From Saprospiraceae bacterium (lineage in GTDB: Bacteria; Bacteroidota; Bacteroidia; Chitinophagales; Saprospiraceae), in NCBI GenBank assembly GCA_021739645.1, contig JAIPBL010000017.1, positions 1 through 64,000 of the forward strand: a DNA stretch of 64,000 nt, given 5' to 3'. Below, piece after piece: positions 24,626 through 29,716 of the stretch. The notes beneath the pieces are model-generated. The model saw nothing but the letters and a program-made list of their open reading frames with translations, made no database searches and had not been told where the DNA came from. Position 1 is the first letter of the stretch; each line of letters begins with the position of its first letter. The translations under genes were made by a program, and so were the position numbers.

Positions 24626-27040
24626 ATGATTGAGTCGCCATTTTCAGAAATCATTGAAACTAAGAAAAGCAGTTCGATAGAGGAAAAATACAAAACGGAA
24701 GTGCTTAGTGATTTTTGGATTTGTTGTGTAAGTAGGGAAGCAAGTATCCTTGGAAGAAAAGAGGTGCTTGGTGGCAAAGCCAAATTCGGAATAGTTGGAG
24801 ATGGCAAGGAAGTGCCACAAGTTGCGATGGCCAGGGCATTCAGGAAAGGTGACTTTCGCTCGGGTTATTATCGAGACCAAACATTGATGTTTGCGCTTGG
24901 GCTGGCTACGGTCGAAGATTTTTTCGCACAACTTTACGCAGATTCCGAAAACGACCCCTGGTCGGGCGGCAGGCAAATGAACAGCCATTTTGCCTCCAAA
25001 ATGATTGACGAAAACGGCGAATGGCTTGACCACCGCTCGCTTTACAATATATCTTCCGATATTTCGAGCACGGGCGGCCAAATGGCACGGGCAGTAGGCT
25101 TGGCACTTGCCTCCAAAAAATACCGCCAAACCCCACAACTTTCCAGCTCCACTAGGTTTTCTGACAACGGTAACGAAATTTGCTTTTGCACAATTGGTGA
25201 TGCCTCTACCTCCGAAGGGATTTTTTGGGAGGCAATCAATGCAACTGGTGTACTCAAAATACCCCTGTTGGTTTCCATTTGGGACGATGGTTACGGCATC
25301 TCTGTCCCGAAGGAATACCAGACCACCAAAGGAAATATTTCCAGTATTTTAGAAGGGTTTAGGCTGAACGAAAAAGAAGAGGGGCTTGAGATTTACAATG
25401 AAAAATGCTGGAACTACCCTGCGCTTTGCGATTTATACGAAATGGCTGCTGAGAAAATGAGAAACGCTCATATTCCAGCCATCATTCATGTGGAGGATTG
25501 CACCCAACAGCTTGGACACTCGACTTCTGGCTCTCACGAACGATACAAGTCGCCGGAACGCCTGGCTTGGGAACGTGAGCACGACTGCAACAAGGTCATG
25601 GCACGTTGGATTGTGGATGCTGGACTAGCAACCGTTGAGGAAGTTGAAGGACTGGAGGCTAAAGCTAAAGCTTATGTTAAAGAATGTAAGGACAGGGCTT
25701 GGAAGGCTTACAATGAGCCTATCAAATTGGAGCGGCAGACTTTGGCAAATATTTACAACCAGGTTTTGACCGAAAACCCGCGAGACGAAAACTTGCTAGA
25801 CCTGCGCAAAAAACTAGATGACATGTTCAACCCGCACTATTCCGATATAGTGAAAAATGGGCGTCAACTCTTTTTTTACCTCAAAAAGCAATCTAACCCT
25901 GCCAAAAATGAACTAAGCGCCTGGCTGGAAAAGTCAAGGAACCTAGCCCTCAAAAGGTATCACTCGCACCTCTACAGTTCCAGCAAATATTCTGCACTCA
26001 ATGTCCCGGTCATTCCCCCGGTTTATTCACAAGATTCACCCCTGAAGAACGGGTTTGAAGTACTCAACCATTTTTTTGACCTAGCACTCGAAAAGCACCA
26101 AGACATCTTTGCCTTCGGTGAAGATGTCGGTAAAATTGGTGGTGTTAACCAAGGCTTCATGGGCATGCAGGACAAATATGGCGAGAACCGAGTTTTTGAT
26201 ACTGGCATCCGGGAATGGACTATCATGGGCCAGGCTATCGGAATGGCCATGCGTGGTTTGCGCCCCATTGCCGAAATCCAGTACATCGATTACCTTATTT
26301 ATGGGCTTGCACCGCTATCCGATGACTTGGCCACACTCCGCTACCGTAGCAACGGCATGCAGCAAGCCCCGGCAATCATTCGAACAAGGGGGCACAGGCT
26401 GGAAGGCATCTGGCACTCCGGTTCACCGATGGGCCTGATTATCAACTCCTTGCGTGGCATGTACGTGCTTACCCCACGTAATTTTGTCCAAGCAGCGGGC
26501 ATGTACAACACCATGCTGCACTCAGATGACCCAGCCTTGATAATTGAATGTTTGAACGGCTACCGTTTGAAGGAAAAAATGCCGGACAATATTGGCGAAT
26601 ACACGGTGCCCCTGGGCGTACCAGAGGTTCTGACAACTGGAACGGACGTTACCCTGGTCACTTACGGCTCCAATATCAGGGTCGCTATGGAAGGTATTGA
26701 ACTGCTAGCACCAACAGGCATTTCTGTGGAGTTGATTGATGTGCAAACCCTGCTCCCTTTTGACCTCGAACATGTAATTGTATCGTCGTTGAAAAAAACC
26801 AACCGAATAGTTTTAATGGATGAAGATATGCCTGGGGGCGCCACTGGTTTCATGTTAAGGGAGGTCTTAGAAGTGCAAGGAGGCTACCAATACCTAGACA
26901 GCCCGCCCGTCACGCTTACGGCGAAAGCGCACCGTCCACCTTTTGGTTCGGATGGCGACTATTTTTCAAAGCCCAACCCAGAGGATGTTTGTGAAGCGAT
27001 TTTCAGGGTAATGCAAGAAGCTGAACCAAGCAGATTTTGA
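24626..27040 (+). CDS. 2-oxoacid dehydrogenase E1, alpha and beta subunits fused
   Basis: Thiamine-diphosphate-dependent decarboxylating component of a 2-oxoacid dehydrogenase complex, 804 residues. The alpha-type half spans about 1-385 and carries the ThDP motif GDASTSEGIFWEAINATGV...WDDGYGISVP. The beta-type half runs from about 470 (FAFGEDVGKIGGVNQGF) to the end, with a transketolase C-terminal domain. In most bacteria the two are separate genes; the fusion is common in Bacteroidota and usually annotated as branched-chain or unspecified 2-oxoacid E1. No E2 or E3 gene is adjacent, so the substrate is open. Confidence 0.92.
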   Translation: MIESPFSEIIETKKSSSIEEKYKTEVLSDFWICCVSREASILGRKEVLGGKAKFGIVGDGKEVPQVAMARAFRKGDFRSGYYRDQTLMFALGLATVEDFFAQLYADSENDPWSGGRQMNSHFASKMIDENGEWLDHRSLYNISSDISSTGGQMARAVGLALASKKYRQTPQLSSSTRFSDNGNEICFCTIGDASTSEGIFWEAINATGVLKIPLLVSIWDDGYGISVPKEYQTTKGNISSILEGFRLNEKEEGLEIYNEKCWNYPALCDLYEMAAEKMRNAHIPAIIHVEDCTQQLGHSTSGSHERYKSPERLAWEREHDCNKVMARWIVDAGLATVEEVEGLEAKAKAYVKECKDRAWKAYNEPIKLERQTLANIYNQVLTENPRDENLLDLRKKLDDMFNPHYSDIVKNGRQLFFYLKKQSNPAKNELSAWLEKSRNLALKRYHSHLYSSSKYSALNVPVIPPVYSQDSPLKNGFEVLNHFFDLALEKHQDIFAFGEDVGKIGGVNQGFMGMQDKYGENRVFDTGIREWTIMGQAIGMAMRGLRPIAEIQYIDYLIYGLAPLSDDLATLRYRSNGMQQAPAIIRTRGHRLEGIWHSGSPMGLIINSLRGMYVLTPRNFVQAAGMYNTMLHSDDPALIIECLNGYRLKEKMPDNIGEYTVPLGVPEVLTTGTDVTLVTYGSNIRVAMEGIELLAPTGISVELIDVQTLLPFDLEHVIVSSLKKTNRIVLMDEDMPGGATGFMLREVLEVQGGYQYLDSPPVTLTAKAHRPPFGSDGDYFSKPNPEDVCEAIFRVMQEAEPSRF

Positions 27041-27221: not shown

Positions 27222-28424
27222 GTGAATAAAAAAAAGCCACTTTCCAAACAGGGTTTCGAATTTGAAATCTTCCATCAGGTGGAAGATTTACCTGCTGATT
27301 GGACAACAGCAGCACCTTCCGACAACAGCTTTTTACATCTCCCCTTCTTAAGTGCATTAGAAGAAGGCCCTCCAAATGGTATGAGGTTTTCATACCTTAT
27401 CTTTTATAGAAATGAGGAACCGATTGGCGTAGCTTATTGCCAAATTACACCATTCAGCGTCGGTGAAAGTGTCCAGTCAGTAGATGAGAAAAGCAACAAA
27501 TATCCCTGCCTGGTACGTGCATTCGGGAGAATAGTCAGGAACCTCGTCGCTGAGAAAAACCGCAACTTGCTGGTTTGTGGAAACCTTTTGCTTACCGGTG
27601 AACACGGGTTTTACTTTCCTTCTAGCATTGACAAAGCCACCGCATTCGACATCCTTGAAGAAGCCTTAATTCTTACTCAAACCGAACTGGAATCGAAAAA
27701 CATCAACATAGACGGCATTTTCATCAAGGACATCGCCGAAGACCACCGTGCACCAGTGAAAGTGCTGGTTGACCGAAAATTTAGGGAGTTCACTTTTCAC
27801 CCGAACATGGTGCTGAATCTTCGGGAAAGTTGGCAGTCGTTCGATGATTACATGAACGATATTTCCTCAAAATACAAAGTTCGGGCTAGGAAGGCGTTTA
27901 AGTCACTTGACGGCATTGAAAAAAGAGAATTAACTGATATTCAGATATTTAGTAGCCAAGACAGGCTGTTAGAACTTTACAAATCTGTGGTGGACAACCA
28001 AGATTTTAACATGGTAACACTTACCGAAAATTACCTTCCCAGCTTGAAACGAAAACTAGGAGACAACTTTAAAGTCTTCGGGTATTTTTTAGATGAAAAG
28101 CTCATCGGCTATTTCACGACCATCAAAAACCACCACGAACTGGAAGCACATTTTCTCGGCTTTGAACCGGACCTAAACCGAACCTACCAAATTTACCACA
28201 ACATGTTGTTCGATATTCTGAAAATGGGAATCGAATACGGGGTAAAACAGGTGGTGTATGCCCGTACTGCCATGGAGATCAAAAGCACGTTGGGAGCAGT
28301 AGCCTTAGAAATGCTTTGTTACATCCGGGCTAGTAACCGACTTACCAACAAGGTGCTGCCACCTATCGTTGAGTACCTAAAACCTTCCACAGAATGGGTG
28401 GCCCGAAATCCTTTCAAAGTGTAG
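27222..28424 (+). CDS. FemAB/GNAT-like acyltransferase of the peptidogalycan family
   Basis: A 400-residue cytoplasmic protein resembling the GNAT-fold peptidogalycan biosynthesis/recognition family. The N-terminal half has FLHLPFLSALEEGPP...YLIFYRNEEPIGVAY, and the second half has KYKVRARKAFKSL and GYFLDEKLIGYFTTIKNHHELEAHFLGFEPDLNR...YHNMLFDILKMGIEYGVKQV. The second half is a typical acceptor-acyltransferase half. The substrate is unknown. The track start is a GTG at 27222; no ATG gives a full N-terminal domain, so GTG is accepted. The gene converges on tyrS with a 17-base gap. Confidence 0.65.
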   Translation: MNKKKPLSKQGFEFEIFHQVEDLPADWTTAAPSDNSFLHLPFLSALEEGPPNGMRFSYLIFYRNEEPIGVAYCQITPFSVGESVQSVDEKSNKYPCLVRAFGRIVRNLVAEKNRNLLVCGNLLLTGEHGFYFPSSIDKATAFDILEEALILTQTELESKNINIDGIFIKDIAEDHRAPVKVLVDRKFREFTFHPNMVLNLRESWQSFDDYMNDISSKYKVRARKAFKSLDGIEKRELTDIQIFSSQDRLLELYKSVVDNQDFNMVTLTENYLPSLKRKLGDNFKVFGYFLDEKLIGYFTTIKNHHELEAHFLGFEPDLNRTYQIYHNMLFDILKMGIEYGVKQVVYARTAMEIKSTLGAVALEMLCYIRASNRLTNKVLPPIVEYLKPSTEWVARNPFKV

Positions 28425-28441: not shown

Positions 28442-29716
28442 CTAGTTTACCACCAGCATTACCTTGTTTTTCTTGCCGTTTTCCAGCATGATGTATTTGC
28501 CGTGTAGCAGCGATTCGTGGTTAATGACGGTGTCCAAGCTCGTGATTTTCTCTTTGTTTACTGAAACCGCCTGACCTTGAATGGCCCGCTTGGCCTCTGC
28601 CTTCGAGGGAAGCATATTGGTGACTTCCGACATCAGCTCTATGATGCCAACGCCGTTAGAAAGGACTGATTTTGGCACCTCAAAACTGGGTATTTCACCT
28701 GCAACGGTTGCCAAATCTTTTTCACCCAATTCAAACAATGTTTCCTTGCCTGCCCGGTTATTGAACAGCAGTTCCGATACGTTTAAGACTGCCTTGTAAA
28801 CTGGTTCGGAGTGAATCCGAACAGTCAATTCCTCGGCCAAAATGCGCTTTAAGGCAACTGGGTTGTTGGCATATTCAGCCTCAAGCGCCTCGACTTCCTC
28901 CCTTGTTTTTAGGGTAAAATACCGGGTCAATTTGGGCAAGTCTTTGTCATCAGAATTTATCCAGAACTGGTAAAATTTGTATGGTGAAGTATGGTCTGGG
29001 TCGAGCCAAATATTGCCGTCTTCTGATTTGCCAAACTTCTTGCCATCCGATTTGGTGAGCAAAGGGGTTGTGATTGCATGGGCTTTTTCAGACAAATTGC
29101 GCCGGATAAATTCTGTACCGGAAGTGATATTGCCCCACTGGTCGCTTCCGCCCATCTGAAGACTACAGCCATGTTCCTTGTAAAGGCACTGAAAATCGTA
29201 AGCTTGAAGCAGTTGGTAGCTGAATTCCGTGAAGGAAAGGCCGCTTTCGAGGCGGTTTTGGACACTGTCCTTGGAGAGCATGTAGTTGACAGTCAGTGTT
29301 TTGCCTACATCCCGAAGGAAAGTCAACACATCCATGTTTTTGTAAAAATCGAGGTTGTTGCGAAGAATGGCCTGATTCCCTTTGTCACCAAATTCCAGCA
29401 ATCTCATCATGTGTTCTTTTTGGCGGTTGAGGTTGCCATCGAGTTCATCGAGGGTTTTCAATTCACGCTCCTTGTCCTTGCCAGAGGGGTCTCCTACCCT
29501 ACCCGTTGCGCCACCCATCAAAACGATTGGCCGGTGCCCGGCCCGCTGGAACAAGGTCAAAATCATGATTTGGACATAATTACCAATGCCCAATGCAGGT
29601 GCGGTCGGGTCAAACCCAATATATCCGGTCCTCATGCCGGTGTTGAGGTGCGCTTCGGCACCCTCTGTGGACTGATGGAACATATTGCGCCAGCGCAATT
29701 CTTCAATAAAATTCAT
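28442..29716 (-). CDS. tyrS: Tyrosyl-tRNA synthetase with an altered HIGH motif
   Basis: Charges tRNA-Tyr; 424 residues, normal length. The Rossmann catalytic domain has GFDPTAP at 34-40, the Tyr-binding YQLLQAYDF and GGSDQWGNI, and the KMSKS-type loop KKFGKS. A C-terminal S4-like RNA-binding domain starts near LPSKAEAKRAIQGQAV. The HIGH tetrapeptide, usually HIGH or HIGN in this family, reads GIGN at 43-46. In Bacillus TyrRS the first His (H45) helps bind the ATP gamma-phosphate, and its loss slows tyrosyl-adenylate formation, so this substitution is notable. The rest of the gene looks intact, and no second tyrS is in the window. Confidence 0.93.
   Translation of the reverse strand: MNFIEELRWRNMFHQSTEGAEAHLNTGMRTGYIGFDPTAPALGIGNYVQIMILTLFQRAGHRPIVLMGGATGRVGDPSGKDKERELKTLDELDGNLNRQKEHMMRLLEFGDKGNQAILRNNLDFYKNMDVLTFLRDVGKTLTVNYMLSKDSVQNRLESGLSFTEFSYQLLQAYDFQCLYKEHGCSLQMGGSDQWGNITSGTEFIRRNLSEKAHAITTPLLTKSDGKKFGKSEDGNIWLDPDHTSPYKFYQFWINSDDKDLPKLTRYFTLKTREEVEALEAEYANNPVALKRILAEELTVRIHSEPVYKAVLNVSELLFNNRAGKETLFELGEKDLATVAGEIPSFEVPKSVLSNGVGIIELMSEVTNMLPSKAEAKRAIQGQAVSVNKEKITSLDTVINHESLLHGKYIMLENGKKNKVMLVVN

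Follow-up and report, generated by a model that had tools for sequence, protein, structure and literature searches.

A Saprospiraceae tyrosyl-tRNA synthetase with a GIGN signature motif: distribution of TyrRSs that lack the first signature histidine and their association with Asn48

The tyrS gene and its active-site residues

The window, the whole 64,000-nucleotide stretch of Saprospiraceae DNA that was analyzed, encodes a tyrosyl-tRNA synthetase (TyrRS) in a complete minus-strand open reading frame with an ATG start and the stop codon included. The product scores 350 bits against the tyrS equivalog model TIGR00234 (cut-off, 113.8), aligning to profile positions 5 to 403 of 406, and combines the catalytic PF00579 domain with the SYY C-terminal domain PF22421. 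The best PDB matches of its predicted structure (mean pLDDT of 86, with residues ∼71 to 90 and ∼131 to 170 less well modelled) are TyrRSs, with TM scores of about 0.84 to 0.87, and its sequence is 51% identical to the 2ts1 TyrRS structure over the aligned catalytic part. Two other genes of the window are on the plus strand. The first (24626 to 27040) codes for a single 804-residue chain in which the E1 alpha and E1 beta components of a 2-oxo acid dehydrogenase are fused; Pfam matches both halves, and all NCBIfam matches are below the cut-off. The second (27222 to 28424), which adjoins tyrS, codes for a 400-residue protein whose only similarity, to FemAB-like and GNAT acyltransferase families, is below threshold. 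The features of the tyrS gene, assigned by alignment with the TyrRS of Bacillus stearothermophilus (Bst), are as follows.

28442 to 29716, minus strand: tyrS, tyrosine--tRNA ligase, 424 amino acids (TIGR00234, PF00579, and PF22421 matches), with no other tyrS found in the genome
29594 to 29614, minus strand: FDPTAPA, residues 35 to 41, with Asp36 and Thr38 (Bst Asp38 and Thr40)
29579 to 29590, minus strand: class I signature Gly43-Ile44-Gly45-Asn46, codons GGC ATT GGT AAT (from the translation and the alignment)
29564 to 29578, minus strand: residues 47 to 51, Tyr-Val-Gln-Ile-Met, directly after GIGN
29456 to 29494, minus strand: GDPSGKDKERELK, residues 75 to 87, retaining Asp76, Lys80, and Arg84 (Bst Asp78, Lys82, and Arg86)
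29021 to 29047, minus strand: DGKKFGKSE, residues 224 to 232, retaining the KMSKS equivalent Lys227-Phe-Gly-Lys230-Ser (Bst Lys230 and Lys233)

The window protein matches TyrRSs of the B. stearothermophilus/E. coli type (TIGR00234, class Ic) over its full length and shares with them the catalytic and tyrosine-binding residues, the KFGKS loop, and the C-terminal domain, but it has Gly and Asn where they have His at the first and fourth signature positions. In the context DPTAPAL-GIGN-YVQIM, Gly43 (codon GGC at 29590 to 29588) aligns with His45 and Asn46 aligns with His48 of the Bst His45-Ile46-Gly47-His48 motif, so that both histidines of the canonical HIGH signature are absent. An earlier reading, made from the sequence alone, had described just these two replacements, which the translation and the alignment bear out, and had correctly placed the GGC codon two base changes away from a His codon. 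The PROSITE class I signature permits Thr at position 1 and Asn at position 4 and is not known to permit Gly at position 1. His45 of the Bacillus enzyme is the textbook case of a residue whose stabilizing effect is on the transition state and not on the ground state; in the protein engineering studies of Fersht and colleagues, the transition-state gamma-phosphate is reportedly bound by this His and Thr40, and replacement of the His by Gly is said to be costly. Bst numbering is used below.

The two signature histidines are the only established catalytic residues that are changed. The tyrosine-binding Tyr34, Asp78, Asn123, Tyr169, Gln173, and Asp176 are all present, as are Thr40, Lys82, Arg86, and the KMSKS-equivalent lysines 230 and 233. 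Comparison of the gene with its TIGN-encoding relatives L034 to L036 (80 to 83% identical) gives dN/dS values of about 0.02 to 0.07, with synonymous sites near saturation, indicating that purifying selection acts on the gene. A search of the whole assembly (99.7% complete, 147 contigs) with the tyrS model, of the kind suggested in the sequence-only reading, detected no second tyrS: a single gene was above the cut-off, and the weak second match was trpS. What had been noted as the only tyrS in view is therefore the only one found genome-wide.

Distribution of the first-His-less signatures

The first comparison set included 80 public relatives and 130 more Saprospiraceae TyrRSs taken from genomes (30 and 100 loci). 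Among the public relatives, the Saprospiraceae members almost all have T-x-G-N signatures; GIGN is found in L033, GLGN in L089 and L095, and QLGN in L083. The first His is missing from 166 of 215 distinct relatives, all of them on the Saprospiraceae side, with the signatures TIGN (150 sequences), TLGN (6), GLGN (4), GIGN (3), GVGN (2), and QLGN (1); four Saprospiraceae in the same set have HIGN. Thr40 is retained in all 166. Residues that are invariant among the first-His-less TyrRSs include Asp38, Thr40, Gly47, Asp78, Arg86, Tyr169, Gln173, Asp176, Asp194, Gln195, Lys230, and Lys233, and position 82 is occupied by either Lys or Arg.

Sampling of signature position 1 was confined to Bacteroidota. 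Across 396 evenly sampled genomes of the phylum, a DNA pattern designed to detect non-His residues at this position matched only in the six sampled Saprospiraceae; codons with C as the first base, and TyrRSs whose flanking residues diverge, escape this pattern. Sampling across the order revealed GIGN or GVGN in seven families (f57, f59, f63, f68, f69, f73, and f75) and TIGN or TVGN in three (f67, f71, and f74). His is found in families f2, f56, f58, f60 to f62, and f64 to f66, as well as in some members of f57, f59, f67, and f73. Judging from these sequences, TyrRSs of the Saprospiraceae, and of several sister families in the order, as a rule lack the first His. The GIGN motif had initially been taken for an individual anomaly, which it is not, given that the first His is missing from almost every sampled Saprospiraceae TyrRS and that Gly recurs in the sister families. 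The alternative considered at that time, that GIGN might be standard in a broad clade with normal activity, largely holds with respect to distribution.

Two observations in these data concern other genomes. The HIGN-containing TyrRS L003, from family f8 of the same class, groups with the Saprospiraceae-side TyrRSs on the tree, possibly owing to transfer or weak resolution. The Saprospiraceae genome G436 has, beside a full tyrS match, a partial one above the cut-off (query positions 5 to 241), which may represent contamination or a gene fragment; the two matches are at G436:C10:201786-202490 and G436:C13:748-2001.

Association of position 45 with Asn48

In an alignment of 259 TyrRSs, position 48 is Asn in all 193 sequences that lack the first His, versus 11 of the 66 that have it. 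The residue pairs at positions 45 and 48 are Thr/Asn (167 sequences), Gly/Asn (25), Gln/Asn (1), His/His (34), His/Ser (20), His/Asn (11), and His/Gly (1). Asn at the fourth position is thus also found in His-bearing relatives, with the signatures HIGN, HVGN, and HLGN, and its presence does not entail replacement of the first His, since four Saprospiraceae have HIGN.

The phylogeny comes from a quick search that used no mixture model, on an alignment with the motif columns removed, and support is weak on some of its deep branches. Parsimony requires a minimum of 7 switches between His and non-His states and 13 residue changes at position 45. Gly at this position arises in about five separate Saprospiraceae lineages, and in the window protein it most likely replaced Thr, rather than His directly, because the nearest relatives on the tree carry Thr. 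With the loss of the first His and Asn48 treated as two binary traits, a likelihood test, which rests on this one quick tree and on few independent events, favors dependence between them (LRT of 24.0, 4 df, p = 8e-5). The sister-pair test yielded only four independent pairs on well supported branches and falls short of significance because independent losses are few.

Compensation within the active site, singled out in the sequence-only reading as the informative question, has indeed turned out to be so, with both histidines changed and no second tyrS as a backup. Other residues show weaker associations. Coupling of Pro42 with the loss of the first His (p = 0.02) is weaker than that of Asn48, and coupling of Gln51, which occupies the position of Bst Thr51, is borderline (p = 0.05); Gln51 is frequent among the first-His-less TyrRSs, and neither residue is universal. 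Arg75, considered as a substitute positive charge, shows no coupling (p = 0.65): it is common in the Saprospiraceae and occurs in HIGN TyrRSs, but the GVGN and GIGN TyrRSs from other families lack it. As compensators, Pro42, Phe126, and Tyr49 proved to be clade markers and not requirements. Among the residues examined (Arg75, Gln51, Pro42, Phe126, and Tyr49), no universal candidate compensator was found beyond Asn48.

Related class I synthetases and competing explanations

The sister class Ic enzyme of E. coli, TrpRS, has a TIGN signature and naturally functions with no His at position 1 and with Asn at position 4 (PMC10201369). Its T-I-G-N-Y letters are identical to the Saprospiraceae TyrRS consensus; the two enzymes differ in their amino acid substrate, and in the window TyrRS the Thr is further replaced by Gly, so that it has G-x-G-N in place of the T-x-G-N found in most Saprospiraceae TyrRSs. 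The TrpRSs of the order keep the first His, with H-x-G-N or H-x-G-T in 31 of 31 sequences, and the TrpRS from the same genome as the window (L002:1213-2223, minus strand, on contig C96 of G000) has HYGN. The TyrRS motif was therefore not acquired from the TrpRSs of these genomes, and the same-genome TrpRS is ruled out as its donor. The resulting pattern in the sister enzymes is reciprocal: in this order the TrpRSs keep the first His (HxGN, or HLGT) and the TyrRSs often lose it, whereas in E. coli it is TrpRS that has Thr. One Saprospiraceae genome, G158, has two full-length trpS matches ∼94 kb apart (C11:428513-429481 and 522875-523858).

The nearest known loss of the first His is that in IleRS2, a natural class I lineage with Gly or Ala at signature position 1, like the Gly of the window TyrRS, and a G/A-x-H-H motif (PMC10485003). 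IleRS2, however, carries its catalytic His at position 3, where every aligned TyrRS has Gly. No His has been gained in the TyrRS motif, which rules out an IleRS2-like His swap. A partial search of the open-licence literature returned no earlier report of a TyrRS that lacks the first His.

The window protein is quite probably the working, essential housekeeping TyrRS of its genome and the only one there, representing a variant type that is spread across the clade, and we infer that its activity would be near normal. It appears to be a natural working variant and not a broken enzyme, because most of its relatives in the order lack this His as well, always with Asn three positions on. In a large group of TyrRSs in the order, the first signature His has been replaced, most often by Thr, repeatedly by Gly, and once by Gln; the pyrophosphate/gamma-phosphate side of the activation transition state would be held by Thr40, Lys82, Arg86, and the lysines of KFGKS. 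The lost His45 could be offset by Asn48, which would still be able to donate a hydrogen bond, possibly with local changes such as Gln51, in a manner comparable to the TIGN motif of E. coli TrpRS. In the Asn48 background, the first His might become dispensable, with Thr preferred and Gly tolerated. The assignment of Asn48 as the compensating residue is tentative. The broader proposal is that tyrosine activation by the TyrRSs of this order proceeds at normal rates although the first His is absent, through an Asn48-based transition-state arrangement and local changes that were reached several times and permit even Gly45; it has a slightly less than even chance of being correct.

If this proposal is true, the classic contribution of His45 is contingent on lineage and is not a general requirement of TyrRSs. 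A large natural group of conserved, sole-copy TyrRSs manages without His45, always with Asn at position 4, and the essentiality of the first His thereby becomes a testable question of epistasis between His, Gly, or Thr at position 45 and His or Asn at position 48. These TyrRSs also caution that the signature alone is insufficient to call synthetase variants defective.

Counting against normal rates is the ∼10^3-fold cost of replacing the first His in several class I synthetases (PMC10485003). The same cost speaks for a genuinely slower TyrRS that is tolerated through slow growth or higher expression, in which position 45 would be drifting among Thr, Gly, and Gln since His is not needed at those translation rates. 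This explanation is unlikely but deserves some weight, as it would also account for the repeated shifts at this position and the lack of an obvious universal compensator other than Asn48. Plain relaxation, however, would not be expected to produce the strict coupling with Asn48, and the strong predominance of Thr at position 45, the unchanging Gly47, and the strong purifying selection on the gene all argue against it.

Selection of the altered signature by natural inhibitors that mimic tyrosyl-adenylate is considerably less probable. It has a precedent among class I synthetases in IleRS2, whose G/A-x-H-H signature confers hyper-resistance to mupirocin (PMC10485003), and in the inhibitor pocket the signature is found on the nucleotide side. 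Nevertheless, IleRS2 retains its catalytic His by a shift to position 3, with no such gain in TyrRS; no second, sensitive tyrS was found in the genome; and the variant is not patchy but tracks the lineages of the order.

The loss of a catalytic residue might also mark a decaying or repurposed paralogue without charging activity, which is very improbable for a full-length protein above the tyrS equivalog cut-off that is encoded by the only tyrS in its genome, has all other catalytic and tyrosine-binding residues, and evolves at dN/dS well below 0.1. Finally, despite the fragmentation of the source assembly into 147 contigs, a sequencing or assembly error can be practically dismissed, because L033 (93% identical) encodes the same GIGN residues with different synonymous codons, and Gly or Thr occupies signature position 1 in many independent genomes.
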